Shown here in pieces: positions 5,911 to 42,825 of a stretch of 42,825 nt of DNA. This DNA is from Nanohaloarchaea archaeon B1-Br10_U2g21 (lineage in GTDB: Archaea; Nanohalarchaeota; Nanosalinia; Nanosalinales; Nanosalinaceae), in NCBI GenBank assembly GCA_001563915.1, contig LKMP01000006.1, positions 1 to 42,825 on the forward strand. Direction: 5' to 3'. A program made the position numbers and the translations under genes. How positions within the stretch are numbered: position 1 is the first letter of the stretch; every line of letters starts with the position of its first letter. The notes under the pieces are model-generated. The model did not search any database. It was given only the letters and a program-made list of their open reading frames with translations, and was not told where the DNA came from.

Positions 5911-6020
5911 TAAGATTGTTTTTCAGCCAGAAACAGGCCCAAATAATCATTTTTTGACTTAGAAATATCTTCTGCACAGCCTTCACATAAAACGTATTTT
6001 GAGAGCTCTGTTTTGTTCAT
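5910..6020 (-). CDS. Possible 36-residue CxxC small protein
   Basis: ATG at 6020 opens 36 codons beginning MNKTELSKYVLCEGCAED; GGGG lies 5-8 nt upstream. The composition (polar, acidic, a CEGC pair) and codon choice resemble real genes of this window. It lies between the class III protein gene and the S-layer gene, all on the minus strand, and the remaining DNA 6021-6175 is AT-rich with no other gene seen. Its stop overlaps the outermost AACGTT repeat. It could be a gene remnant; the single CxxC could bind metal only as a dimer. Confidence 0.35.
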   Translation of the reverse strand: MNKTELSKYVLCEGCAEDISKSKNDYLGLFLAEKQS

Positions 6021-6175
6021 AGCGCCCCAAAAGTTTTTTGTTAAGTGAAAGAATAGTTAAGATTCTGTTTTAACTTGTTTTTAGGCCTTGAGTTTTGTTC
6101 GGTTTCTGTCTAACAGCTCTTACATGAGTTATTGAGGATTATATATTTTTGACAGTATATTTTGTCAACCTTTAG

Positions 6176-7909
6176 TTATTCTAGCATATACAAGTGATGT
6201 CCATCATCCCGAGAATTGAAGTATAACCGGCCTTCACCTACTGTAGGCGTGGATCGGGAGTTGTGGCCTACTGATTTTTCCCAGATGGTTTCTCCTGTGT
6301 ATGCGTCGAATGCGAATAGGTTAGAGTCTTCGTCATCGTGATTTTGTGTTGACTGATAAACTGTTCCTTCTGTTATGAGAGGTGCTCCGTAAGCATCTCT
6401 TGCGTCCAGTGTTCTACTCCATTCTTCTTCGCCGCTTTCTTTATCGAATGAATTGACGTTTACTTCATTGGGCGATGCAGTTGCGTTACGGGTGGCGGCA
6501 TATACTTTTCCGTCATATATTCCGGGGCCTGACCATGCTCTTTCTCCAGTGTCATGACTCCATTCTATTTCGCCTGTTTCTTTGTCTAGTTTCCAAAAAT
6601 TGGATTCGTAGTGTTCAGGTAATTCTGTATTGTCTTCGTCTATGTCGTGGCCGCTGTCAGAGGTGATGTATAGGCCGTTTTCGCCTACTGCAGGTCTTCC
6701 TACTACGCCTTTTTCTATTTCTGTATTCCATTCTAGTTCTCCGTTTTCTTTGTCAAGTGCGAATACGTTTCCTCTTCCTACAGCATATAGTTTTTCATCG
6801 TCTATTACTGGAGTAGGTCTTATTCCTGCGTCTCTATACGGCCATCTTGCGCCATCTTCTTCTTCAGGTTCTAATTCGTTTGCTACGTTTTCTCGCTGGC
6901 CTGTTGCTTCAAATTCTATTTCTGTGCTCCAGAGTTCGTTTCCTGTATCTAATTCTAAAGCTGTTATTGTGTCAGGCCAGTCTCCGACCCCTTCACGGTT
7001 TATTGGGCTAGGCTCTCCTTGCCATCCATCTGTGATGTATAATATTCCATCTTCATATGCGTTGTATTGTCCTTCTTCTTCCCATTCAAGATTTCCTGTT
7101 TCTCTGTCAAGAGCGAATAGTGTGTTATTCCATCTGTAACCTATTACGTAGTCATCAGTTATTTCGAGGTTATCATAGTTGCTTATTCCTGTTCCTTCTT
7201 CTCCCGTTCCTTCCATGTCATAGCTCCATTCTTCTTCGCCAGTCTCCGCATCATAGGCATTAACGTAAAATCCTGTATCGGCCGTTTCATTTCTGACAGA
7301 TTGGTACACAGTTCCATTGGAAAGCGAGGGGTTGCTCCTATAGTTTCCTCCATCTTCCACTCTCCATTCTATGTCCGGTTCTGAAGCAGGCCCCCATGTG
7401 TAAGGATGGTATCCTGTTCCCTGTGCGTTATACTGCCAAGTCCTCCATTCTCTAGGATCAAAATTTTCATCTAAGAAGTAGTTCCCTGTTATTGTTCCTG
7501 AAGTTTCCATTCCCTCCAGGTTTCCAGAATCAAAATTTATGGTTGCATCAATAGCGTTTGTTCCTGAATCTGTTTCGAATACTGGAAACCTTACTGTATC
7601 TGTATCCGCAACGCTTACACTTTTACCCGGAAACACGATTACTTCATTATCTCCATCACTGAGCTTTATCTCATTTATAGTTATAGAATCAGAATCCTGA
7701 TTTCTTACTACAGCCGACATACCTTCTGAAGTCATTCCTACCTCATCTATCGCAATACTCTGACCATCAAAACCTGTAACAGTCTCAATGCTTTGATCTC
7801 CAACCATCGCAAATATCGCTCCTCCAACAATTGCTACTACGAGAAGCATCCAACCATAAGTCATCAAATACTCAATCGCAGACTGCGCTTTCGAGGTGTT
7901 GTAGCACAT
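6176..7909 (-). CDS. Class III signal-peptide protein with PQQ-type propeller
   Basis: 577 residues from the ATG at 7909; a TTG at 7918 in frame is a less likely start. Near the N-terminus AQSAIEYLMTYGW followed by a hydrophobic helix is a class III (archaeal pilin-type) signal: prepilin peptidase would cut before the Gln-containing motif, leaving the helix for assembly or anchoring. Residues about 35-150 form a beta-rich stalk shared with the neighbour at 8008-9075. From about 175 there are eight repeats with a Trp-bearing strand (for example IEWRVED, EEEWSYD, ELEWNTE, ETIWEKS), typical of a PQQ/quinoprotein-like beta-propeller. It is probably exposed at the surface for binding rather than catalysis, since no signal peptide for periplasmic quinoproteins or cofactor ligands are evident. 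Confidence 0.85.
   Translation of the reverse strand: MCYNTSKAQSAIEYLMTYGWMLLVVAIVGGAIFAMVGDQSIETVTGFDGQSIAIDEVGMTSEGMSAVVRNQDSDSITINEIKLSDGDNEVIVFPGKSVSVADTDTVRFPVFETDSGTNAIDATINFDSGNLEGMETSGTITGNYFLDENFDPREWRTWQYNAQGTGYHPYTWGPASEPDIEWRVEDGGNYRSNPSLSNGTVYQSVRNETADTGFYVNAYDAETGEEEWSYDMEGTGEEGTGISNYDNLEITDDYVIGYRWNNTLFALDRETGNLEWEEEGQYNAYEDGILYITDGWQGEPSPINREGVGDWPDTITALELDTGNELWSTEIEFEATGQRENVANELEPEEEDGARWPYRDAGIRPTPVIDDEKLYAVGRGNVFALDKENGELEWNTEIEKGVVGRPAVGENGLYITSDSGHDIDEDNTELPEHYESNFWKLDKETGEIEWSHDTGERAWSGPGIYDGKVYAATRNATASPNEVNVNSFDKESGEEEWSRTLDARDAYGAPLITEGTVYQSTQNHDDEDSNLFAFDAYTGETIWEKSVGHNSRSTPTVGEGRLYFNSRDDGHHLYMLE
7844..7885 (-). repeat. 42-bp near-identical repeat, copy 1
   Basis: Codes for the class III signal region. 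It matches 9013-9054 at 41 of 42 bases, far more similar than the rest of the two genes, suggesting recent duplication or gene conversion. Confidence 0.85.
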
Positions 7910-16855: not shown

Positions 16856-17319
16856 TATTCTTCTCCACTTGGTGCTGCTTCTTCTTTGATTGCTGCAGTG
16901 TCTACTCCAACTTTGCTTCCTGTTCTGAAGCTGGATTTGGTTTTTTGTCCTCTTACTGGTAGTCCGAGCTTGTGTCTCCATCCTCTATAGCTATCTATTT
17001 CTTTAAGCCTTCTGATGTCGAATTCTTGTTTTAGCTCGAGGTCTGACTCTATTAGATGTCCGTCTTCTCCAGTTTCTCTGTCTTTTCTCCTGTTAAGCAA
17101 CCATGATGGCACTTCAGGATTTTTAATTTCTTTTTCGATTTCTTCTATCTTTTCATCGCTTAGATCTCCAATCTTCTGGCCTTTCAGGCCTAGATCATGT
17201 GCGATTGCGTTCCCATACAGCTCTCCGACTCCGGTTAGGCCTGTCAAGGCTTTTTCCACCGGCTTTGTGCCGTCGATTCCTGTACGTGCAATTCTTACAA
17301 TTTCTTTAGTTTCGGACAT
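16855..17319 (-). CDS. rps13: 30S ribosomal protein S13 (uS13)
   Basis: 154 residues. Contains the uS13 helix-two-turn-helix region (KALTGLTGVGELYGNAIA), the archaeal SWLLNRRKD segment, and the C-terminal YRGWRHKLGLPVRGQKT motif that contacts rRNA and tRNA. The usual basic extreme tail is replaced by an acidic one (IKEEAAPSGEE). First gene of the rps13-rps4-rps11-rpoD operon, the conserved archaeal order. The ATG at 17319 follows the TATA box by about 33 nt. Confidence 0.95.
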   Translation of the reverse strand: MSETKEIVRIARTGIDGTKPVEKALTGLTGVGELYGNAIAHDLGLKGQKIGDLSDEKIEEIEKEIKNPEVPSWLLNRRKDRETGEDGHLIESDLELKQEFDIRRLKEIDSYRGWRHKLGLPVRGQKTKSSFRTGSKVGVDTAAIKEEAAPSGEE

Positions 17320-17347
17320 CGGGTATAGAACTGGGTCTCGCTTAAAT

Positions 17348-17356
17348 CTTATAAAG
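17348..17356 (-). promoter_or_regulatory. TATA box of ribosomal operon
   Basis: CTTTATAAG on the minus strand, giving a predicted leader of about 7 nt before rps13. A second AT-rich element, GATTTAAG, lies just downstream at 17341-17348. Confidence 0.55.
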
Positions 17357-17423
17357 GTATGAACCCCTAGAACTGATTCCGGCAGTAATTGTTAGAAAAA
17401 TGTTGCGCTCTAATTAGACTTAT

Positions 17424-17903
17424 ATGGTCTTAACCCGACTAATACACCGCTTAACTACGCCCCCAAGAGAGTTCGTAGAAATTGAAGAGGATATTGGCGA
17501 AGTTTTGACAACTCATGCGATAGCCGGAATGGAGGACGAGTATGGCGAAGTAGGCCGACAAAAATTGAATGCTGACTGGGACGAAGTAGAAAGACTAATG
17601 GAAGAAAGTCCAGGAGTTTTCAAGTCTCCTGAAGCCGAATTTAATTATAATGGCGGCCTTACCGCATTAAGCCGACGACCCGGATGCACAAACGTTGAAA
17701 GCCTGAGCTATGATGTTAATGGAAATGATTATTCAATATTCTTGATAGAGGTTGCCGAACCTATAATCACTGATGATAATCCTTTCTACATTGTGGGAGA
17801 GGTTTTTGAGTTTCCTGAGTCTGAAACAGATGCTAAGCTAAGTTACTTGAATGCTGAAAGACGAGATTATGACACTCCTCTTTCAGAAAATCTTGAAAGA
17901 TAA
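17424..17903 (+). CDS. Hypothetical protein, paralogue of 18807-19271
   Basis: 159 residues, acidic. No known family, signal peptide or membrane segment. It shares a layout and several positions with the protein at 18807-19271: an early (V/E)EIEE segment, then a strand pair followed by (Y)(I/L)(V/I)GEV and an acidic stretch, and similar lengths. The two genes flank the carbonic anhydrase gene. The ATG at 17424 has no obvious ribosome-binding site, as expected for leaderless messages. Function unknown. Confidence 0.65.
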   Translation: MVLTRLIHRLTTPPREFVEIEEDIGEVLTTHAIAGMEDEYGEVGRQKLNADWDEVERLMEESPGVFKSPEAEFNYNGGLTALSRRPGCTNVESLSYDVNGNDYSIFLIEVAEPIITDDNPFYIVGEVFEFPESETDAKLSYLNAERRDYDTPLSENLER

Positions 17904-17936
17904 AAAATTAAGAAAATGCGCGGCCTGTGTTAAATA

Positions 17937-18701
17937 TCAACTGATACGTTTTGCATTGATTAGACTATAGCTCGACACCTTTTCTTCAAGGGTTTCTGGA
18001 CTCTTTTCTCCACAATAATTTACCAGATATAACTGGCCTTTTTTACCCTCATACATGCCGTCAAGGTCAAAAACTAGACCTATGAATTCTGTATCTGTGT
18101 AATCTGACCGTTCTATGAGTTCTGCAACTTGATTGTCTACATTCCTTTCTACAAGCCTATCAACCTCTTCTATCTTCTCTGCATTACCCTTTAGTTCCTT
18201 GTAATCTTCTAGCAGCCCAGAGTTTATTAACAGACGAATTTTTGTGTTTATTCCTTGTGTTTTCCCATTATACTTGGCTAGGTTTACTTGATCTATTTCT
18301 ATATCATCTAAATCATAGTCTTTCTCTAGCGCTTCAAGAGTTTCATATGCTGCAGTTACCGCACCACAACCTGTATGCCCTATTACTGCCGCCACAGTAG
18401 GAGTCTCAGAGTGCTCCGGTATATAGTCTACATCTCCAGAAATAGTTGTTTCTCCTTCATGCGTATATTCTAGAACCGAGTTCCCTATTGTACCTCGAGT
18501 AAACTCCGCTCCTATTTCTTCATTACCCCACATGCCCTCCTGCTTAACTCTAGAGTCGCAGCACGACACCGTTGTAGTTACGGGATCTTGGCCGTCCACA
18601 TGTTCTTGCAGCTTCTCCTGCATTTTTTCTATATACTCATTATTTCCTTCAAAAACTTCGTTTAGAAAATTAAGCAAATTGAATGTTTCTTCTGTACTCA
18701 T
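17937..18701 (-). CDS. Beta-class carbonic anhydrase
   Basis: 254 residues. The zinc and catalytic signature is complete: Cys47-x-Asp49-x-Arg51 in SCCDSRV and His109-x2-Cys112 in VIGHTGCGAV. It would interconvert CO2 and bicarbonate in the cytosol; there is no signal peptide. The central region has extra acidic segments. The ATG at 18701 has a TATA box 24-25 nt upstream (leaderless). It is convergent with 17424-17903 and divergent from 18807-19271. Family assignment is firm; physiological role (pH or bicarbonate supply) is inferred. Confidence 0.85.
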   Translation of the reverse strand: MSTEETFNLLNFLNEVFEGNNEYIEKMQEKLQEHVDGQDPVTTTVSCCDSRVKQEGMWGNEEIGAEFTRGTIGNSVLEYTHEGETTISGDVDYIPEHSETPTVAAVIGHTGCGAVTAAYETLEALEKDYDLDDIEIDQVNLAKYNGKTQGINTKIRLLINSGLLEDYKELKGNAEKIEEVDRLVERNVDNQVAELIERSDYTDTEFIGLVFDLDGMYEGKKGQLYLVNYCGEKSPETLEEKVSSYSLINAKRIS

Positions 18702-18721
18702 CGGTGAGGAACCATTTGAAC

Positions 18722-18729
18722 ATTATAAT
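18722..18729 (-). promoter_or_regulatory. TATA box of carbonic anhydrase gene
   Basis: ATTATAAT on the minus strand, centred 24-25 nt before the ATG at 18701; predicts leaderless transcription. Confidence 0.5.
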
Positions 18730-18806
18730 TTAATTAACTGAACTACTCTTGACTCAACTGTAAAAATAGTAATAAGTAAACCAGAAAGTAAGACTTAATA
18801 CCTATA

Positions 18807-19271
18807 ATGACCAAAACTAGTCCCGACATTCTAGACCCTTATGAAGAAATAGAAGAAGAATATCAAGACATTTTATACAGTCATGCTAGCGACTCCGCAG
18901 CCCATTACGGCGGTTCTCTACACGAAAGCTCTTCATCATGGAGCCAAATACTAGAGCATATAGGAGACTCATGCGGCTCCATAGATGACAAATGCTATCT
19001 AGGTTATGAGTTAGAGATGGCTGCAGACATGCTTGAAAACACTTCCCATCTAGGTCTGAAAAACGAAGACGAGGAGATTTATCTTTTGATAGGTAGAGCA
19101 TCCGGATTCATAATCGACAAAAATATTCGAACTCCCGAATACTTAATTGGAGAAGTAAAAAAATGGGAAAGCGGAGACACAACCGTGCCCAACTGGAGAT
19201 TTATAGGCGAAATTCGCACTCCTAGCTTCCTGAAAGACACATTAAATAGGCCTCCATCGCTTTCAAAATAA
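18807..19271 (+). CDS. Hypothetical protein, paralogue of 17424-17903
   Basis: 154 residues, acidic, with two Cys (CGS and KCY) and no known motif. The segment YEEIEEEYQDIL and the later EIYLLIGRASGFII ... YLIGEVKKWESG match the order of VEIEEDIGEVL and YSIFLIEVAEPII ... YIVGEVFEFPES in the protein at 17424-17903. I infer a diverged orphan family. It is divergent from the carbonic anhydrase gene, sharing a 105-bp intergenic region. Function unknown. Confidence 0.65.
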   Translation: MTKTSPDILDPYEEIEEEYQDILYSHASDSAAHYGGSLHESSSSWSQILEHIGDSCGSIDDKCYLGYELEMAADMLENTSHLGLKNEDEEIYLLIGRASGFIIDKNIRTPEYLIGEVKKWESGDTTVPNWRFIGEIRTPSFLKDTLNRPPSLSK

Positions 19272-28950: not shown

Positions 28951-30066
28951 CTATACTGCCGATAGATATGGCGCGTAACTGAACGCTAGAAGAGTGATTA
29001 TCGCCCATACTGACATTGCAGCAGTCATTACGCCTGCTATTTGTTTTTCTGTTAGCCCTCTCCGCATTAAAGGATGAGTTAAAGAATAGTTTTTGCTGTG
29101 TAGTGGCTTTAGCGTTCCGTCAGGCTGAATTTCTCCCCAAGAATGCGCATTAAACTTATTTCGAGCTTTTAACAAAAACTCGGCCATCCATGGCATGAAC
29201 AAAATTATTCCAAATTTTTCCATATCGCCTATAACCATTGCAGAAAACATCACTGCTCCGCAGAGGTAAGTTAAAGAGTCTCCTGGAAGCACTGTAGCAG
29301 GATACTTATTATAGAACAGAAATGCTAGAAGAGTTCCCGAGAGCACAAAAGTTAACGCATAGGCCTCTACCGCTCCATTCTGGTAGGCGTGTATTCCTAG
29401 AGCTGTTGAGGCAACAAAGGCTAACGCAGCTTCCATCCCGTTTATGCCTGCCAACATATTCACCACATTCGACACAAAGAGTAGGCCTAAAGGCAATAAA
29501 AGCAAGGGATAAATGAGACCCCAGTCTATAACTCCTATTACAGGAAACGTCATTGTCCATGATCCTGCTCCTACAGCTATTAATGGAAATGCGGCAGGCA
29601 GAACCATCAACATTTTTACTGCTTGATTTAGGCCTGTACGTTCTATTTCCGAATCTTTAGCGCCGAATACGACATCTACATGGCGGTGAAAAATAGTTTT
29701 TCCGGTTTCAAGATCTATTTGGATGTCTTCTCCTACTCTTTCCTCTACTAATCGAGTTATATCAACATGCACATCATCAATAAGACCTATTAGTGCTATT
29801 AATGCTGCTGAAGATACTGCAGCAAATATGAGCGATCTGTCTGTCACTGTTTCTGTGAAAAGCGCAGTTGCTCCCGCATAAAATGATATGGCAAACATAA
29901 AACCTAGAAGAACTATAACTCCTCCTGAAGTCGGTATTCTAGGCTTCCCTAATTTTTGCTGATCTTTTCCATATATTCCTGACGCAAAAAGATATTTTTC
30001 CGCTACCGGCGTGCCTAAAAGCACCGTAAGAAATCCCAATATTATTGATAGAAATAGTAGCTCCAT
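28951..30066 (-). CDS. GlcNAc-1-phosphate transferase, MraY/WecA/Alg7 family
   Basis: 371 residues with about ten membrane helices. Family motifs: KPRIPTSGG near the start, LIGLIDDV (Mg2+-binding aspartates), NVVNMLAGINGMEA, LPGDSLT, and the C-terminal LHSKNYSLTHPLMR. It transfers a sugar-1-phosphate, probably from a UDP-HexNAc, to a polyprenyl (dolichyl) phosphate, the first step of lipid-linked glycan assembly. The gene is 10 nt downstream of aglB, so glycan start and glycan transfer are co-transcribed. Donor identity is inferred. Confidence 0.9.
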   Translation of the reverse strand: MELLFLSIILGFLTVLLGTPVAEKYLFASGIYGKDQQKLGKPRIPTSGGVIVLLGFMFAISFYAGATALFTETVTDRSLIFAAVSSAALIALIGLIDDVHVDITRLVEERVGEDIQIDLETGKTIFHRHVDVVFGAKDSEIERTGLNQAVKMLMVLPAAFPLIAVGAGSWTMTFPVIGVIDWGLIYPLLLLPLGLLFVSNVVNMLAGINGMEAALAFVASTALGIHAYQNGAVEAYALTFVLSGTLLAFLFYNKYPATVLPGDSLTYLCGAVMFSAMVIGDMEKFGIILFMPWMAEFLLKARNKFNAHSWGEIQPDGTLKPLHSKNYSLTHPLMRRGLTEKQIAGVMTAAMSVWAIITLLAFSYAPYLSAV

Positions 30067-30076
30067 AACATAATAC

Positions 30077-32671
30077 CTATTCTTCTACTCGCCAAGTCTT
30101 TACAAAGTCATTAGATGCTTCATCGACTCCTTCCAAATAATCTATTCCATACCCATCCATAAGATACATTCTTGCAATATTCGTTTCCTTAATATCTCTA
30201 GGTACGATTACTAGTCTTGCTTGCTGTCCAAACACCTGGCTTCTATCAAGAGTAAAGTATGGATCCTCAGCAATACAGTACTCTGAGTCTCCATCTTCAA
30301 ATTCTTGCACTCCATTCTCTGTAATAATGCAGCTCGCAGACATCCTTTGCCCGTCCATAGTTTGGATAGTAGCTGCTCCACTTATATCGGCAGAAGCTTC
30401 AGTTCTGTTTATAGGCGCGTATATTTCTGCAGGCAATCCTTCAATACTTCCAAAGAATGGTACTACTTCTGACTCTCCATCCGAAGTTACTACATCTTCT
30501 AGAGCCCCCATTGTCTGAGCTTGTGACCATGAGTCAAAGTTTTCATTGTCCTCTCTAGCAATCTGACTTACTGCAGCATATTTACCAATCATAGTATTAT
30601 CCAGCACTATATAGTCTACAGAATGCTTCTCTAAAAGATCTTGATCGTCCTCAGGATCATCAGATGTGAAGTATCTTGCAATCGGGAAGTTAACTCTCTC
30701 ATCGCTTGTGTAATAGTTATAGTTACCTCCATCCGCCACACTTGCAGAACGGCCAATCGTCTGGAAATGGTATCCATAATCCCACCATGACAAAACTACC
30801 GTCCCTTCATCAGCTTCTTCTCTCAAGTAGTCCAGATTCTCCATCCAGGCCTCATTAGGCTCTCCACCTATGCCTTGAACGGCCGCCCACCCGGCAAAAA
30901 TATTCACTGATAACAGTGCAATAATTCCCACGCCTAGTATCAACGTCCTCAGTTTGTCCCCATTGATATCAAGTTCGCTGAAATCCAAAGATTGGATTCT
31001 ACGGTATGCTATCGAGAATGTATATCCTGCTCCAAGAGCGACCGGGAATGCAGCCAAGAATATTAAACGGTTTCTTGCCGTTGCGCCTAACAAATTAGTG
31101 ATAATCCAGAAAAATGCAAGGAATTGATACCACTCTACTTGGATTTCACGAGGCTTAAAGTCTTCTAAAAAGTATACTACTCCCAGTCCTAAAGTCGCTA
31201 TCCATAATGGGTACGCTGCGCCTCTAAGCACAGAAGACTGATCTTCTTGTCCAAAAGAGAATAATGTGGCGATTATAGCGGTAAATAGAAGAGACATAAT
31301 AGTGATTGATAATACAGAATCTTCGTCAAGATAAAACACAAGAACCGAAACTAGGCCTAGCATAATAAGTCCTAACGCTATTCCAGCTGTCGTATAGCCT
31401 CCAAAGAACCCTAAAAATGTTACACCCCATGCTGATACGACTCCAGCCAGAAGCCCATAGTATTTACGACCTTCTAAGACTTCCTCTACTAACCCATAGC
31501 TTTTGGCAATCATTAAGATTGCTGAAACAAGAAGGAATGGAATTGAAAGGAAAACTAGTGTCCAAGGACCTACCAGCGCAGAAAGAATCTCTGCGCCCGG
31601 AAATATTTGATCAACAATTCCTGTACCAAGCTGAACTGTAAGTTCTCCTAGCCCTGGTGCTGCATCTTCTGCAACAGTTCCCGAAATAGTTCCTGCATCA
31701 GTCTGAGTTGCTCTACGATATATGCTGAAAGTTATATCTGCTAAGAAGCTAGAATAAAGTGGAGATAATGCGAGCGCCAGACCTCCTGTAATGTACATTG
31801 ATGGTGAAAAGTACTGTAAATAATCTTCCTTCAACAAGTTTAGCTCTTCTACAAGGAAACGAGCCCATAGCAGTGTAAGCATACCGACATTCAGGTAAAT
31901 ATACATATGGTCGAACCAGAATCGTCCGGAATTAAATATAGATGCGAAAAATGCGGCTATTAAGACTGTAGGCGTGAATGCAGCAACAAGATTTTCTATA
32001 TCTCTGTCAATTAAAAGCATGAAACCGACTGTCATCGGATACAGAAGCCAAAGTACTCCGCTTCCACCCCAAGTGATTGTGAATATTCCTAATGTGAGGC
32101 CTGCAAGTATGCCGTAAATCCAGTCTTTTTTCTTCCACGCTATAGTGAAGAAGAGAAGGGATAGTAGCATGAAGAATGTTCCTATGGCTTCTTTCTCGAA
32201 GAATCCTGCTGAGCTTCTAAACATTGCTCCCGGAATTACTGCTATGAAGAATGCTGCTCCAAGGCCTGTGTATTTATCGAACATTTCTTTTCCAAGGTAA
32301 TACATTGCTATTGCGCCAAGACCGGAGAAAAGAGGTTGTATCCAGTAACCAAACTCTAGATAAGAGTCAAAAAGTAGAAATCCTCCTGCCCAGTAAAGTA
32401 TTGCCGGTATTACAAGATTACCCATATGGTCTAAATGCAGCGGGTAAGCATATGGGAAATATCTTAGGAAATCAAGTTCTGGAAGTCCTCCTGTATATGC
32501 TATTTGCTGTGAGCTTCGGAACAGATTATACGGATCCATTGCAGAAAGATATTCAATAGTTCGTGTAGGATAGTATCGGAAGCCTACTGCTATGAAGAAA
32601 ATTGCTAGTAAAAACGGGGCGACCCAGTACTTTTCGGCCAGTTTTTTCGGATTTCTTTCTGAAATATTCAT
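30077..32671 (-). CDS. aglB: Oligosaccharyltransferase AglB (STT3)
   Basis: 864 residues. Many membrane helices (about 15-600) carry the catalytic first loop with Asp46 (AMDPYNLFR) and an FFEKEA segment near 157-162. The soluble C-terminal domain holds the invariant WWDYG at 629-633. It transfers lipid-linked glycan to Asn of N-x-S/T sequons outside the membrane; the S-layer and class III proteins here are plausible targets. A TATA box 25 nt upstream supports the ATG. First gene of the aglB-GPT-zinc ribbon-ogg operon, divergent from secF. Confidence 0.95.
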   Translation of the reverse strand: MNISERNPKKLAEKYWVAPFLLAIFFIAVGFRYYPTRTIEYLSAMDPYNLFRSSQQIAYTGGLPELDFLRYFPYAYPLHLDHMGNLVIPAILYWAGGFLLFDSYLEFGYWIQPLFSGLGAIAMYYLGKEMFDKYTGLGAAFFIAVIPGAMFRSSAGFFEKEAIGTFFMLLSLLFFTIAWKKKDWIYGILAGLTLGIFTITWGGSGVLWLLYPMTVGFMLLIDRDIENLVAAFTPTVLIAAFFASIFNSGRFWFDHMYIYLNVGMLTLLWARFLVEELNLLKEDYLQYFSPSMYITGGLALALSPLYSSFLADITFSIYRRATQTDAGTISGTVAEDAAPGLGELTVQLGTGIVDQIFPGAEILSALVGPWTLVFLSIPFLLVSAILMIAKSYGLVEEVLEGRKYYGLLAGVVSAWGVTFLGFFGGYTTAGIALGLIMLGLVSVLVFYLDEDSVLSITIMSLLFTAIIATLFSFGQEDQSSVLRGAAYPLWIATLGLGVVYFLEDFKPREIQVEWYQFLAFFWIITNLLGATARNRLIFLAAFPVALGAGYTFSIAYRRIQSLDFSELDINGDKLRTLILGVGIIALLSVNIFAGWAAVQGIGGEPNEAWMENLDYLREEADEGTVVLSWWDYGYHFQTIGRSASVADGGNYNYYTSDERVNFPIARYFTSDDPEDDQDLLEKHSVDYIVLDNTMIGKYAAVSQIAREDNENFDSWSQAQTMGALEDVVTSDGESEVVPFFGSIEGLPAEIYAPINRTEASADISGAATIQTMDGQRMSASCIITENGVQEFEDGDSEYCIAEDPYFTLDRSQVFGQQARLVIVPRDIKETNIARMYLMDGYGIDYLEGVDEASNDFVKTWRVEE

Positions 32672-37154: not shown

Positions 37155-37517
37155 CTATCTGTGTTCGCTGTAAGGATCTTCTATTCTCTCAATATCATCA
37201 GGCCTGTAAGGAAAAGATATTTCCAGTACTTTTGCGACCATCGAATCAATGTTCTGTAATTGGTGTTTCTCTCTACTTCTGATTATTTGAGCCTTTCCTT
37301 TCTTGAGCTCTTTCATTTTGTCCTCTAATCGGAGAGTTATATTTCCCTCTTCAAGATATATGATATCTGCCTGAGTGTCGTGAGAAGAGTAAGAAGTCAT
37401 CTCATCAGAGTTAATTACTAGTCTTCTGATTCCAAGCATTCCACGTTCTCCCCCAATATCTACCTGGGTAACAAGTATCTGCTCTTCATACCCCCAAGGC
37501 TTCTCAATCCTTCCCAT
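37155..37517 (-). CDS. Cupin, mannose-6-phosphate isomerase type II-like
   Basis: 120 residues, one cupin barrel. GRIEKPWGYEEQIL at the start and the KGKAQIIRSREKHQLQN segment resemble the C-terminal isomerase part of type II PMI/GMP proteins and related sugar cupins. The metal-binding HxH pair is reduced (SSHDTQ), so isomerase activity is uncertain. It lies at the left edge of the glycan cluster, 36 nt downstream of the Nudix gene. Confidence 0.7.
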   Translation of the reverse strand: MGRIEKPWGYEEQILVTQVDIGGERGMLGIRRLVINSDEMTSYSSHDTQADIIYLEEGNITLRLEDKMKELKKGKAQIIRSREKHQLQNIDSMVAKVLEISFPYRPDDIERIEDPYSEHR

Positions 37518-37553: not shown

Positions 37554-38105
37554 CTAAAAATCCTGAAACTGCTTATCTATAAGAAAGTGCTTTGTAGGTT
37601 CAGTAAGCTCGATTTTTTTTAACTCAGATGGATCGACCCATCGGAAATCGGAGGCCTCATCATTTGTGCTGACTTCTACTGGTTCCTCTACAGTCTTAGT
37701 GTACAAATACCAGTAATGATAATCTGCGCCTCTCCTACAGGGATCTTCAACTTTTTCCTCTAATTTAAGTTCAGGAGCAGAAATTTCTAGATTTGTTTCC
37801 TCTTTAACTTCTCTTATAATAGCTTTTTCAGGATTTTCTCCTTCTTCCAAATGACCTGCTGGAATAGTATATTTGAAAGGATATTTTCTCCGGTTTAGCA
37901 ATAATATCTTACCGCTTTTTACAATTACCGCCCCAACAGACACATGAACAATCTCTCCTTCCTCATTGTAGTGTTCTAATCCCTTGTTAAGAATCATCCT
38001 TGAGTTTTTATGGCCTTCTGAACAAATATAGTATTCCTTCCCGTCTTCAGTCTTAATTTGAGTCTCTTTACCACAATCCATGCATTTCATCTTTCTCATC
38101 CTCAT
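37554..38105 (-). CDS. Nudix hydrolase with N-terminal zinc ribbon
   Basis: 183 residues. A short Cys-rich N-terminus (KCMDCG and YICSEGH) is likely a zinc ribbon, as in NudC/NadM-like Nudix proteins. The Nudix box GHLEEGENPEKAIIREVKEE follows the Gx5Ex7REUxEE pattern; the usual Gly after EEx is Asn here. It should hydrolyse a nucleoside diphosphate linked to another moiety, perhaps a nucleotide sugar given its neighbours. The 5' end overlaps the upstream cupin gene by up to 38 nt, and several in-frame ATGs (38105, 38099, 38090) are possible. Confidence 0.85.
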   Translation of the reverse strand: MRMRKMKCMDCGKETQIKTEDGKEYYICSEGHKNSRMILNKGLEHYNEEGEIVHVSVGAVIVKSGKILLLNRRKYPFKYTIPAGHLEEGENPEKAIIREVKEETNLEISAPELKLEEKVEDPCRRGADYHYWYLYTKTVEEPVEVSTNDEASDFRWVDPSELKKIELTEPTKHFLIDKQFQDF

Positions 38106-38685
38106 AATAGCTAAGTTTAGGGAAATCTATATCCTCTACATGCGAATATAGCTGATCTCCTTGTAGATCCCATTTGCCTACAACTGTTTCCTGAAGCTCT
38201 GGATCGCCTCTGGCAACAATTAACTGGCTTCCTGGCTCGCGTGATTGGATACCGTGATACATACCTGCAGGAATAATTAAAGGCTCATCAAACTCGATAA
38301 TAGTAAACCCTGATTCTGATTCTTTGGATGCCACCTCCATCTCAAAATTACCTGTTGGAACGTAAAGCTCAGGAGTATTGTGTACGTGTGTAAGCTCAGG
38401 ATATGATCTCAACTCTTCAGAAAATCGATATTTTAACTCTACTGGGGAATTATCCGAATTCATGAAATAGAAGCCATCGCTGCTTCTATCATCTCTTTCA
38501 ACAGTGTTTTCGTTTCCAAGAATTCTTGCATCAATGTAAAGGCCTTCTATACCAGGATCTCTACTCAAAACAACGTAATCTCCCTCTTCTATGTATCCAT
38601 TATCTTCCATTGCAACGAAACCCGGCTCCTCTAGGATTTCTCTTGCTTCATCCCATTCTCCAAAATGCGTGACTTCAGCAAACAT
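38068..38685 (-). CDS. Metal-binding cupin protein
   Basis: 205 residues from ATG at 38685 (MFAEVTHFGEWDEA). A longer version from 38739 would include the TATA box, so I reject it. The cupin motif 1 is clear: THVHNTPELYVPTG (HxHx3E), and motif 2 is PAGMYHGIQSREPGS. It probably binds a divalent metal and a small sugar-like ligand; sugar isomerase/epimerase or binding protein are both possible. It is first of three minus-strand genes, overlapping the Nudix gene. Confidence 0.75.
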   Translation of the reverse strand: MFAEVTHFGEWDEAREILEEPGFVAMEDNGYIEEGDYVVLSRDPGIEGLYIDARILGNENTVERDDRSSDGFYFMNSDNSPVELKYRFSEELRSYPELTHVHNTPELYVPTGNFEMEVASKESESGFTIIEFDEPLIIPAGMYHGIQSREPGSQLIVARGDPELQETVVGKWDLQGDQLYSHVEDIDFPKLSYYEDEKDEMHGLW

Positions 38686-38710
38686 CGTAATACACCATAT
38701 TACTTTTTTT

Positions 38711-38720
38711 GTTTTTAAAC
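38711..38720. promoter_or_regulatory. Shared TATA-like element for divergent genes
   Basis: GTTTTTAAAC, near-palindromic. Its centre is 26 nt before the ATG at 38741 on the plus strand and 30 nt before the ATG at 38685 on the minus strand, so one element could serve both divergent genes. Confidence 0.5.
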
Positions 38721-38740
38721 CATGGCATTTATTGTACATT

Positions 38741-39151
38741 ATGGGTAATGAATACTTGCGTTCAATGCTGACAGGCGAATCTCGATCCTATGGTTTTACT
38801 ATCGCATTCTGGGGTAGCGGCGCAGTCTTAATCAACTACTTCGGCGTACCAGAACTATTCCCCGCACTATTATTCGGAATAGGATCCATAACAGGTTTTG
38901 CTCTATTAGCTATACTTGCCCTAAGAATGGAAGAGCCTAAAGAAGCAACCTCAAACAAAAATCTGCTCATAATTTCAGGAATACACTATCTATCGGCACT
39001 ATTACCCATATTAGTAGCCTATTCAATAATATCCTTAGGTATAGAAATCCATGCAAGCTTCTTTTTATCAGGGATGAGCGTATCGCTTTTGTACACGCTA
39101 TTGTCAATACAAGAGCAAAACATGGCAGAATTTCTAAATAAGAAAGTATAA
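38741..39151 (+). CDS. Small integral membrane protein
   Basis: 136 residues from ATG at 38741 (MGNEYLRSML); the frame is open upstream but that part is antisense to the cupin gene and precedes the promoter. Four predicted helices (about 20-38, 42-62, 77-95, 102-122). No motif recognised. It is convergent with the nucleotidyltransferase fusion gene, 5 bp between stops. Role in the glycan cluster is unknown. Confidence 0.7.
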   Translation: MGNEYLRSMLTGESRSYGFTIAFWGSGAVLINYFGVPELFPALLFGIGSITGFALLAILALRMEEPKEATSNKNLLIISGIHYLSALLPILVAYSIISLGIEIHASFFLSGMSVSLLYTLLSIQEQNMAEFLNKKV

Positions 39152-39156
39152 CCCTA

Positions 39157-39903
39157 TTACTCTACTTTCCGCCATTCCCCACCATAAATATATCCTGTTA
39201 GCTCTTTTTCAGCCGCCAACTTCTCAAAAGTCTTATGAAGACCTCCAGTCTCCAATCCATCAAATATTTCCGGTTCAAAGATATATGCCCCCGCATTAAT
39301 CAGTCTAGTAGGCTCTTGTCCCGGATCAGGCTTTTCATCAAAACCTAATATAGTTCTACCTTTCATACGAACAACTCCATAATTTGTAGGATCTTGTACA
39401 GTCGTTAACGCCATTGAAGCTTTTTTACCTTCATCTCTATGCACCTGAAGCATATCCCTAAGATCAATATCTGCTATAACATCGCCATTAATTGCTAAAA
39501 ACGTTTTACCTATTTTATCCTTCAATTGTTTTAGCGCAGTGGCCGTCCCCCCATCTTCACTATCAGCAACATATTCAATAACTAAACTATTCCAACTACT
39601 TCCAAAATGATTTTCTAAATCTTCCCTATTAGACCCTGCTAAGAGTAAAACACGCGAAATTCCTTTGTCTGACAGCATATCAACAATATGGCTTAAAAGC
39701 GGCTTTCCATCTATCTCAGTCAAAGGATCATACTCTTCACCTCCGCAAAATACTGCAGCAGTATCTAACTCCTGCCCATGAATATAGTTCTCAACTATCT
39801 CCTCCACCATCTGAGACCTATTCATCGACCGGTACTCAGCTTCTGCATCAATACGCTGCACAAGTACGTCATCAAGAGTAAGAGAAACACGCTTTTTCGT
39901 CAT
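39157..39903 (-). CDS. Ribbon-helix-helix / sugar nucleotidyltransferase fusion
   Basis: 248 residues from ATG at 39903. Residues 1-43 (KKRVSLTLDDVLVQRIDAEA, then NRSQMVEEIVENYI) are a CopG/MetJ-type ribbon-helix-helix DNA-binding domain. Residues 48-248 are a nucleotidyltransferase fold like NDP-sugar pyrophosphorylases: GKPLLSHIVDML, LAINGDVIADIDL (139-NGD-141), NYGVVR, FDEKPDPGQEPTRLINAGAYIFEPEI. The N-terminal loop normally GGxGTRLxPLT reads GGEEYDPLT, losing the GTR phosphate-binding and catalytic residues, and the C-terminus ends early. It may be a sugar-nucleotide-sensing regulator rather than an enzyme. It lies 26 nt after the formyltransferase gene. Confidence 0.8.
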   Translation of the reverse strand: MTKKRVSLTLDDVLVQRIDAEAEYRSMNRSQMVEEIVENYIHGQELDTAAVFCGGEEYDPLTEIDGKPLLSHIVDMLSDKGISRVLLLAGSNREDLENHFGSSWNSLVIEYVADSEDGGTATALKQLKDKIGKTFLAINGDVIADIDLRDMLQVHRDEGKKASMALTTVQDPTNYGVVRMKGRTILGFDEKPDPGQEPTRLINAGAYIFEPEIFDGLETGGLHKTFEKLAAEKELTGYIYGGEWRKVE

Positions 39904-39929: not shown

Positions 39930-40610
39930 TTAGTTTGAGCCATTGACCTCTTCTACTTCAAGCTTCAAATTGTAGAATTTCCCATCCTTTTCAAAAACAC
40001 CGAGGCCTTTATCACCATAAGACAAACCTCTCAAAAGACCTATAGCCTCTTCTAAAGTCATTTCTTCGTTAAGATCAAGCCGTGATACCTCATCTAAATC
40101 TTCTCTATGATGCATAGATCCCTTCTCAAGGTCTTGCTCTTCGCCTTCTTTGCCTGCGTAAATATTAGGCCAATTCTTCTTAAACAGTTCTGCTTGAGCA
40201 GCCATCAAACGCTCCCGCAAACTAGAAGCAGTGTCATCAGATTTCAACTCTACTTTTTTCCTTGCAATTACTGGTCCAGTATCAAGACCCTTGTCCATGT
40301 AGTGTATGGCTACTCCTGCAGGACTTCCATCAATTATAGGCCATATATATGGATAAGCGCCTCTGTTAAAAGGCAGATAAGACGGATGGAGATTCACTAT
40401 ACCTTTTTCAGGAATTTCTAGTATTTCCTCAGGCACAATATGTTCAAAGCCTGAAGATATTACTAGATCAGGCCTCAACTCTTTAACCAGGTCTAATTGT
40501 TCTTTTTCAGTTAGTAAAGCCTTTACTTCAACATCACTCCTATTATTAAGCCACTCGTAGACTTCTTCACCTGCATCATTTATCCCTAGAAAGACTGCTT
40601 CGACCGTCAT
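39930..40610 (-). CDS. Formyltransferase-family protein (sugar N-formyltransferase-like)
   Basis: 226 residues. The formyltransferase core is complete: NLHPSYLPFNRGAYPYIWP with catalytic Asn73 and His75, then AIHYMDKGLDTGPVI with Asp110. It is shorter than methionyl-tRNA formyltransferase, which archaea lack, so a sugar-nucleotide formyltransferase using 10-formyl-tetrahydrofolate is more likely. A C-terminal helical and beta extension carries EEAIGLLRGLSYG. The start ATG at 40610 is followed by MTVEAVFLGI. Same direction as the RHH-nucleotidyltransferase fusion; together they suggest an N-formylated surface sugar. Confidence 0.8.
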   Translation of the reverse strand: MTVEAVFLGINDAGEEVYEWLNNRSDVEVKALLTEKEQLDLVKELRPDLVISSGFEHIVPEEILEIPEKGIVNLHPSYLPFNRGAYPYIWPIIDGSPAGVAIHYMDKGLDTGPVIARKKVELKSDDTASSLRERLMAAQAELFKKNWPNIYAGKEGEEQDLEKGSMHHREDLDEVSRLDLNEEMTLEEAIGLLRGLSYGDKGLGVFEKDGKFYNLKLEVEEVNGSN

Positions 40611-40660
40611 TAGTATAGTTAGAATAATGAAAAAATATTAAACCCAAGCTTTGGAGAAAA

Positions 40661-41407
40661 ATGGCTTTAATGTTTGATCTTTCAAAATTATACAAGATGC
40701 ACGGCCGAAAACGAATCAAATATGAATACAAGAAAAGGTCTTTCCAAGAGTTCCTTAAATGGCTTTATCATGGGCTAAAAGCTCGTATGGCGGTTAAGCT
40801 CCATAGTTTGTTATCAGACATATTGGGAGAAGAGAGATACTTTAATGCTCTAAAAAGGCTTCGGTGCCGAAAGATAAGAGAAGATGAGTTCATAGAGCTA
40901 AGGAAAATAGATCCTGACACAGTGGAATATGTTTCGCCAACACGAGAAAAACAGAAATGGTACTCTACCGGCAAACTGAAAAACGGAGGTTGGGATAAAG
41001 GTCTAGATAGATACAATGATCTTCCTTTTCATCGCGCAATGATAAAGAGAGTAAAAGAAGATATTAAGTGGGATGAAATTGAAGAAGTTCAAGAGGCTAG
41101 GAAAGGAGGAATAAAATGGCCAGGAAAGCCGTATAACGTAGACAGAGACATTCAAAAGACTGAAGAATTATTGGAGAATATTAAGGAGAATGGTTACAGG
41201 TCTCAAGAAGAAATTAGAAACATTTCTTACGAAGAAGCAGAGAAGAACTGGGATTTTAAGGCCTTAAATGAAGTATGTGTAGATCTTGACAGAAATGGCG
41301 ACCCTTTATTTGTAGACGGACGGCATAGATTAAGTATTGCAAAAATTCTTGGAATAGATGAAATACCTGTTCGTATAGTTATGAGGCACAGAAACCTCAA
41401 AAAGTAA
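40661..41407 (+). CDS. ParB/sulfiredoxin-like domain protein
   Basis: 248 residues. The first 100 are very basic and helical, unusual in this acidic proteome. The C-terminal part has LNEVCVDLDRNGDPLFVDG followed by RHRLSIAKILGIDEIPVRIV, the ParB-N/sulfiredoxin-like (ParBc) signature DGRHRLxxA. Such genes often accompany archaeal glycan clusters, but biochemical role is unknown. The ATG at 40661 is used; a second ATG is at 40670. It lies 36 nt before the flippase gene and is probably co-transcribed. Confidence 0.75.
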   Translation: MALMFDLSKLYKMHGRKRIKYEYKKRSFQEFLKWLYHGLKARMAVKLHSLLSDILGEERYFNALKRLRCRKIREDEFIELRKIDPDTVEYVSPTREKQKWYSTGKLKNGGWDKGLDRYNDLPFHRAMIKRVKEDIKWDEIEEVQEARKGGIKWPGKPYNVDRDIQKTEELLENIKENGYRSQEEIRNISYEEAEKNWDFKALNEVCVDLDRNGDPLFVDGRHRLSIAKILGIDEIPVRIVMRHRNLKK

Positions 41408-41443
41408 CAGCTTATTAGTACCTCCAAAGACCGAGTGTAAATA

Positions 41444-42825
41444 ATGACCGAGTCCAAAGTTGTGAAATCTCTTTTCACTGGGGGCGCCATAATTTTCGCA
41501 GGGATGATAATCTCCAAGCTTTTTGGGTTGCTTTACCGAGTAGTAGTTGGTAGAGCGCTCGGACCAGAAGAATATGGCATAATCTCGGTTATGCTTGCAG
41601 TTTCCTCTGTGATAGGAGCCTTAGCATACATAGGAGTGCCCAAAGGAGTCCAGAAATACGTATCAGAGTATAGAGGTAAAAATGACATAGGCAGTCAAGT
41701 TGGTGTGCTTCGCACAGGACTCATACTGGTAACAATACCATCATTCTTAACTGGTATAGCGCTTTTTCTACTAGCTCCTTGGATTTCTACAGAAATATTT
41801 AATGAGCCGCGAGCCATATGGCCGCTAAGATTTCTAGCAATTATACTTCCTTTACGAGCCTGGAGAAAAACTATGATTAAGACCACAGAAGCCTATGAAA
41901 AAATGCAGTATAGAGTCTATACTAACTATATTTATGGAAATGTCCTAAAGGTAATACTCACAGTATTCCTCGTAATAATGGGCTACGGCTATCTTGGCGC
42001 AGCTTTCGCATACGTATTTGCTTGGGGATCTGCAATCATACTTGCAATAATATTCACATACAGAGTTTTACCTGAGACCTTTCAACTCTCGAGGAGTCCA
42101 GGAGCACAATATCGGAAGCTCTTCCACCACTCTTGGCCGCTGTTTGCGGCAGGTTTGTTTGCATCAATCGCCGGATACATAGACACGTTTATGCTTCAGG
42201 CCTTCCTTGGCAGCGAAGAAGTAGGACTATACAACTCAGCCTATCCTTTCGCAGCAGTAATATCATCTGCAGGAGGAGTATTTGGATCAATCTATCTGTC
42301 AAATGCCTCTAAACTCTATGGACAGGACAAAAAAAATGAAATGACTGATGCCTATAGGCTCGTTGTGAAATGGATTGCATTAGTATCTCTTCCAATGTTC
42401 ATGATAATGGTAGCGTTTCCACATGCAGTGCTTCAAATCTTTGGTAGCGAATACCTTGGAATGGGTAACGTTCTTAGAGTACTTGCTTTCGGCTTCTTGT
42501 TGTCGGCCATGATAGGTCCTGTAGGCAAAGTAATACAGGCTATAGATAAGACCAGGTACAAACTATACCTTACTCTGTTTATAGGGTGTTCAAACATATT
42601 GCTCAATTACTTGTTGATTCCTATTTATGGAATAATGGGTGCTGCAGTCGCCACCACTCTTACATTTGCAATAGCTTTCATACTTAAAATCTTAGTAATG
42701 GAGTATCTTGCTGATATACAGCCATTTCGTCCGATTATCCTTAAAATAATAACTAGTTCAGGTCTTGCAGCGCTAGCAGTTTTCTTAATAGCTTTACTGG
42801 CGTTTGAAACAACGCCATTATGGTA
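41444..42825 (+). CDS. Polysaccharide flippase (Wzx/MATE-like), 3'-truncated
   Basis: 460 complete codons visible from ATG at 41444 (MTESKVVKSLFTGG); the frame is open at the window end. Polysaccharide-synthase/flippase family: KLFGLLYRVVVGRALGPEEYG at the first helix and YGIMGAAVATTLTF near the visible end, with about twelve membrane helices. It should flip lipid-linked glycan across the membrane for AglB or for a surface polymer. A later ATG at 41506 would delete part of the first helix, so I keep 41444. Confidence 0.9.
   Translation, partial: MTESKVVKSLFTGGAIIFAGMIISKLFGLLYRVVVGRALGPEEYGIISVMLAVSSVIGALAYIGVPKGVQKYVSEYRGKNDIGSQVGVLRTGLILVTIPSFLTGIALFLLAPWISTEIFNEPRAIWPLRFLAIILPLRAWRKTMIKTTEAYEKMQYRVYTNYIYGNVLKVILTVFLVIMGYGYLGAAFAYVFAWGSAIILAIIFTYRVLPETFQLSRSPGAQYRKLFHHSWPLFAAGLFASIAGYIDTFMLQAFLGSEEVGLYNSAYPFAAVISSAGGVFGSIYLSNASKLYGQDKKNEMTDAYRLVVKWIALVSLPMFMIMVAFPHAVLQIFGSEYLGMGNVLRVLAFGFLLSAMIGPVGKVIQAIDKTRYKLYLTLFIGCSNILLNYLLIPIYGIMGAAVATTLTFAIAFILKILVMEYLADIQPFRPIILKIITSSGLAALAVFLIALLAFETTPLW

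Follow-up and report, generated by a model that had tools for sequence, protein, structure and literature searches.

A ribbon-helix-helix protein with a loop-less nucleotidyltransferase domain in Nanohaloarchaeota, a candidate regulator of sugar-nucleotide and glycan genes

Described systems with related domains

NikR is a one-component transcription regulator with an N-terminal ribbon-helix-helix (RHH) domain and a C-terminal ligand-binding domain, the latter being an ACT-type domain that binds nickel. In trigger enzymes, or enzyme-repressors, such as PutA (an RHH joined to an enzyme), BirA and NadR, a DNA-binding domain is combined with a metabolic enzyme. GMPPA and KJC1, which are inactive paralogues of GDP-mannose pyrophosphorylase, exert regulation through a nucleotidyltransferase (NT) fold that has no activity. 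Although catalytically inactive, GMPPA still binds GDP-mannose (PMC11228364, PMC9168903), and its contacts with GMPPB are mediated by a beta-helix domain (PMC9168903).

The window analyzed here, a stretch of 42,825 nucleotides from an 815 kb nanohaloarchaeal genome, encodes at 39157–39903 on the minus strand, from an ATG start, a protein of 248 residues in which the open reading frame and its Pfam matches reveal an RHH domain fused to an NT fold (RHH-NT). RHH-NT shares with NikR the N-terminal RHH of the same type and the C-terminal position of the candidate sensor, which is, however, a dead NT instead of an ACT-type nickel sensor. As in GMPPA and KJC1, the NT fold appears to lack activity, but whereas GMPPA uses its beta-helix to act on the enzyme GMPPB, RHH-NT has a DNA-binding domain and no beta-helix, the chain finishing at residue 248 in both sequence and model. 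PutA, BirA and NadR use other enzyme folds; members of the RHH-NT group with an intact loop would fit among them, whereas most of the sampled proteins have a deleted or altered catalytic site. The NT core resembles AglF, Arch_glmU and mannose-1-phosphate guanylyltransferase, from which RHH-NT differs in the absence of the loop and the addition of the RHH. RHH antitoxins (Rv0298, CopG-like) have the same type of RHH, but no toxin partner was seen for RHH-NT, which is fused to an NT fold and lies among sugar-nucleotide genes.

The combination of an RHH with a dead NT appears to be new, whereas its layout (NikR) and the principle of a dead sensor (GMPPA) are already known. The open-access papers that were searched, a body that leaves out most subscription papers, yielded no description of RHH-NT. 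The earlier note had allowed that the fusion might turn out to be a common known architecture; it proved to be frequent among DPANN and CPR genomes, but not known, as judged by the lack of a describing paper in that search. A paper on archaeal dark matter was considered as a prior description and rejected, since it covers only MNT/HEPN modules and RHH antitoxins.

Domain architecture and the deleted catalytic loop

The RHH domain spans residues 5–41 (39781–39891, minus strand), with the strand KKRVSLTL and the N-cap NRSQ, and is matched by Pfam RHH_1 above its cutoff (E 7.6e-5). A search of the RHH profile against the PDB matched the antitoxin Rv0298, NikR (1q5v, E 8e-9) and CopG. Strand positions 5, 7 and 9, which we take to face the DNA as in CopG-type RHH proteins, are occupied by R or K in 119, by S or T in 115, and by T, S or N in all of 123 fused proteins (the best 30 per search, dereplicated), and R29 and S30 are invariant in the same set. 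The polar DNA-facing strand residues of NikR/CopG-type RHH regulators are therefore present in the fusions. Even at a threshold of E 0.01, RHH_1 picks up just 35 of a set of 68 fused proteins; this may explain why such fusions readily escape notice.

The NT (NDP-sugar pyrophosphorylase) domain spans residues 48–248 (39160–39762, minus strand). Pfam NTP_transferase matches residues 59–217 with an E value of 1e-23, and the profile is entered only at its position 22, past the catalytic loop. The best NCBIfam matches of the core are the AglF, Arch_glmU and mannose-1-phosphate guanylyltransferase families, with scores far under the family cutoffs. An AlphaFold2 model of the window protein, built with 68 family sequences as input (pLDDT 93.7, pTM 0.85), consists of RHH helices 12–24 and 29–44 and an NT fold beginning with strand 48–52, so that three residues link the second helix to the first strand. 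The nearest solved folds in Foldseek were VTC1 GDP-mannose pyrophosphorylase, glucose-1-phosphate cytidylyltransferase and the GMPPA/GMPPB complex. Pfam, the model and the fold matches indicate that the overall Rossmann-like NT fold is present. For a relative with an intact loop (L227), the model has the same layout (pLDDT 92.7) plus a C-terminal helix.

Aligned against loop-bearing relatives, both fused and unfused, the window protein has lost the catalytic loop at GGEEYD, residues 54–59 (39727–39744, minus strand), where its VFCGGEEYDPLTEIDGKPLL stands opposite ILAGGKGTRLRPLTDNITKPMIQVKEKPIL in an intact fused relative. About 10 residues are gone from the NT, in the GTRLRPLTxxxPK segment, which carries both the phosphate grip (GTRLxP) and the catalytic lysine; the position of this lysine (PKPLLPV) holds an aspartate in the window protein.

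By contrast with the phosphate grip, which is gone, the part of the pocket that faces base and sugar is retained, as judged by its motifs. GTA at residues 119–121 (39541–39549, minus strand) is a predicted nucleotide-side contact, the GT (G119/T120) presumably contacting the base as in the enzyme family. NGD at residues 139–141 (39481–39489, minus strand) corresponds to the metal site by motif comparison, EKP at residues 190–192 (39328–39336, minus strand) to the sugar-phosphate contact, and NAG of NAGAY at residues 203–205 (39289–39297, minus strand) to the sugar pocket, the last two assigned by motif conservation. All 68 aligned family members carry G119, T120, G176 and G205, and E190-K191-P192 is almost invariant. 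Among the 92 loop-lost members, EKP is exactly intact in 68, and EKP or NAG is changed in a minority. The metal-binding aspartate of NGD, present in the window protein, is His or Asn (NGH/NGN) in 9 of the 16 dereplicated Nanohaloarchaeota members. The WxD of active enzymes is WRK in the window protein, whose C-terminus is WRKVE. As the aspartate of WxD is also lost, affinity for a ligand or metal could be weak.

The earlier note, made from the sequence alone, had described an RHH ahead of an NDP-sugar pyrophosphorylase fold with a shortened C-terminus and with NGD, EKP and NAGAY remaining, and all of this was borne out: the two Pfam domains recur together across Nanohaloarchaeota, the chain ends at the WxD position where the intact fused relative carries an extra terminal helix, and the three motifs are present. 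It had also described the GxGTRLxPLT loop as replaced by GGEEYDPLT. The loop is indeed absent, but the 'PLT' of GGEEYDPLT aligns with the KPLLPV segment, which indicates that GTRLRPLTxxxPK was deleted rather than that GxGTRLxPLT was swapped.

Distribution and repeated change of the loop

The fusion was found, with common neighbors, in about 20 Nanohaloarchaeota genomes, which are most of those examined. Comparison of two of these fusion genes (L131 and L132) gave a dN of 0.08 and a dS of 0.91 (dN/dS about 0.09), indicating purifying selection. A wider survey used a profile (A1) covering the RHH and the region of the loop, with matches counted at E ≤1e-15 and with each surveyed set labeled by the phylum of the record at its center. 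Matches were obtained in 47 of 295 Micrarchaeota-type, 22 of 87 Diapherotrites-type and 106 of 279 Nanoarchaeota-type genomes, and in 49 of 380 genomes of the phylum of a Falkowbacteria record (Patescibacteria-type), corresponding to frequencies of 13–38%, in which some weaker matches may be partial. With the same profile, the fusion was absent from about 690 Pseudomonadota-, Actinomycetota- and Thermoplasmatota-type genomes, in sets without an internal positive control: 199 genomes of the phylum of an Actinomycetota record, 299 of that of a Methylotenera record, and two overlapping sets of 194 and 116 of that of a Methanomassiliicoccales record. In plasmid records, the best five places begin at residue 60 and thus cover the NT only (nine records with at least 80% cover were left out).

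A further set of RHH fusions, more divergent than the first, occurs in the Nanoarchaeota-type genomes, with matches ending at about profile position 93–95, and CPR bacteria contain a shorter set of 212–229 residues. Both are possibly RHH domains on other degraded NT-like domains.

The G[TS]R[LM]...K loop is kept in 31 and gone in 92 of the 123 fused proteins, a proportion that, given how these proteins were selected, is not a census. Intact loops are present in the Nanoarchaeota-, Diapherotrites- and Patescibacteria-type sets, and the loop is absent from every sampled Micrarchaeota-type and Nanohaloarchaeota member (16 of 16 dereplicated for the latter). On one Diapherotrites contig (L037), two RHH-NT fusions lie close together, at 4158–4961 and 5983–6828, one with a degenerate and one with an intact loop, and similar pairs occur at L267 and L268.

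In a tree of the NT domain with the loop columns removed, the fused proteins lie to the same side of one branch with a support of 90; this is a quick tree with weak deep branches, in which the unfused rows were picked for their similarity to the window protein. On this tree, the loop state changed at least eight times among the fused proteins and 10 times over all rows, four of these changes being forced by starred branches, and loop shortening required seven changes, of which five are forced. The counts themselves are blind to direction; repeated loss is nevertheless far likelier than repeated gain because the loop is a long conserved motif. The designation of the window protein as a former enzyme is therefore well supported, the RHH-NT group having both members with the full GxGTRLxPxT...PK and members without the loop, with repeated changes between these states.

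It is plausible, at about an even chance, that RHH-NT forms a widespread and undescribed family of one-component regulators in DPANN and CPR, in which a single fusion of an RHH to an active NT was followed by many parallel losses of catalysis, yielding pseudo-enzyme sensors of sugar nucleotides that control the glycan and sugar-nucleotide genes of very small symbionts.

Genomic setting and proposed function

Directly upstream of the fusion gene, across a gap of 26 bp and likely in the same operon, lies a sugar N-formyltransferase-like gene (39930–40610, minus strand; Pfam Formyl_trans_N and N_formyltrans_C), the best NCBIfam match of which, dTDP-4-amino-4,6-dideoxyglucose formyltransferase, is under its cutoff. 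A 50-bp intergenic segment (40611–40660) separates this pair from divergent genes at 40661–42823 on the plus strand, which encode an unknown protein with no confident Pfam match and, to judge by eye, a polytopic membrane protein resembling flippases. By gene layout, this segment is a candidate promoter/operator; its inverted repeats are weak and imperfect only, as seen without comparison to chance. Downstream on the minus strand, Pfam and synteny identify a cupin gene (37155–37517), a conserved partner of RHH-NT (family c4), and a NUDIX hydrolase gene (37554–38105). The family c7 gene at 38068–38739, with a probable start at 38694, has no Pfam match, is cupin-like by eye only, and follows RHH-NT in several Nanohaloarchaeota. 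The conserved syntenic neighbors at 28951–32671 (minus strand) are an MraY/GPT-like transferase and an STT3/AglB-like oligosaccharyltransferase, both under their family cutoffs. The open reading frame at 38591–39151 encodes a membrane protein (family c8) that is convergent with the fusion gene and occurs in 11 compared loci; its listed start is probably too far upstream, a start at 38741 (MGNEYLRSM) being likely.

Across Nanohaloarchaeota, the fusion is surrounded by genes for STT3/AglB-like and MraY/GPT-like proteins, cupins, NUDIX hydrolases and NAD-dependent epimerases, with SecDF farther out. In other phyla, the neighbors include phosphomannomutase, UDP-glucose dehydrogenase, epimerases, UDP-GlcNAc 2-epimerase, GHMP kinases and another NT. 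The upstream neighbor was divergent for 16 of 19 Nanohaloarchaeota fusions, compared to 108 of 275 other genes there (39%; p 1.4e-4), and for 13 of 21 fusions in larger DPANN/CPR loci, compared to 85 of 250 other genes (p 0.011), both p values ignoring shared ancestry. The same was true of 62 of 100 other fusions and 5 of 72 unfused NTs, a comparison that likewise ignores shared ancestry and draws its controls mostly from other phyla. Overall, 62–84% of the fusions diverge from the upstream neighbor, compared to 7% of the unfused NTs.

We consider that the window protein is probably a one-component transcription regulator with a dead NT as its sensor, controlling sugar-nucleotide and glycan genes. 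The role as a regulator of the glycan cluster, proposed in the earlier note, is indirectly favored by the conserved DNA-contact positions, the divergent promoters and the neighbors in N-glycosylation and sugar-nucleotide synthesis, but no inverted-repeat operator emerged from the promoters: in 70-bp segments ahead of the 19 Nanohaloarchaeota fusions, inverted repeats did not exceed those in dinucleotide shuffles, except for a borderline case (L128, 5% level). The TATTAC-AAG-GTAATA dyad upstream of another of these fusions (L129) was rejected as an operator, being within chance. As for responsiveness to sugar nucleotides, we infer it solely from the conserved motifs of the pocket.

In the mechanism that we propose, the RHH would dimerize and bind an operator at the promoters of the surrounding sugar-nucleotide and N-glycan genes. 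Loss of the phosphate-gripping loop and the catalytic lysine would halt the chemistry between NTP and sugar-1-phosphate, while the surviving recognition pocket for base and sugar would bind an NDP-sugar or a sugar-1-phosphate. The ligand signal would travel through the three-residue link from the second RHH helix to the first NT strand, and the synthesis genes would probably be repressed at high levels of their product. In those lineages where the loop is intact, the fusion may serve as both enzyme and regulator, that is, as a trigger enzyme, and lineages like that of the window would have retained the sensing half only.

Part of the evidence could also be read in other ways. The protein may regulate through DNA binding without sensing any sugar nucleotide, its NT fold being a mere scaffold for oligomerization or for the binding of partners. 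The lost loop, the replacement of the metal aspartate in part of the family (NGH), the frequent loss of the WxD aspartate and the minority of loop-lost members with altered EKP or NAG are consistent with such a scaffold, which would not, however, require EKP, NAG and GT to be among the most conserved positions of the family, and we regard it as unlikely. Still less likely is a GMPPA-like non-catalytic partner that exerts allosteric control over another NT and uses the RHH just for dimerization. The GMPPA/GMPPB complex is among the nearest folds and an NT gene lies beside some fusions, but a second NT is adjacent in only a minority of loci, so that it was rejected as a general partner; moreover, the RHH retains its DNA-contact pattern, and the fusion has no counterpart of the beta-helix domain through which GMPPA and GMPPB make contact (PMC9168903).

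Lower again in probability is an NT that is still an enzyme, with an altered loop or another chemistry, tethered to DNA. The NGD, EKP and NAGAY kept in the window protein and the intact loops of several fused relatives would fit an enzyme, whereas the deletion of the phosphate-binding G-T-R segment and the catalytic lysine, the loss of the metal aspartate in many close relatives, and the other NTs with intact-looking loops in the same genome (L002 and L005) argue against it. A decaying pseudogene or an assembly artifact, which the missing catalytic motif might suggest, is very improbable for a full-length, syntenic gene under purifying selection across Nanohaloarchaeota; recurrence in about 20 genomes with shared neighbors rules out a pseudogene, misassembly or chance. 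The regulator with a dead NT sensor thus remains our preferred reading.

DPANN and CPR are major, mostly uncultured lineages with few characterized regulators, in which surface glycans matter for contact with the host. If the proposed reading is true, the fusions would offer a testable way into how these symbionts regulate their surface glycans, and the series from fused active-looking to fused dead enzymes would represent living intermediates in which an enzyme became a gene switch several times.

Separately from the fusion, the genome of the window carries two tandem unfused NTs (L003 and L004; contig C11, about 17250–18811), one with the degenerate loop AATKKESMFPLNDTIPTSLMP and the other with AAGCSSRFKPISDNKHKG. 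This pair resembles a dead/live pair of the GMPPA/GMPPB kind, and the degenerate unfused type recurs in other Nanohaloarchaeota (L025, L029 and L032).
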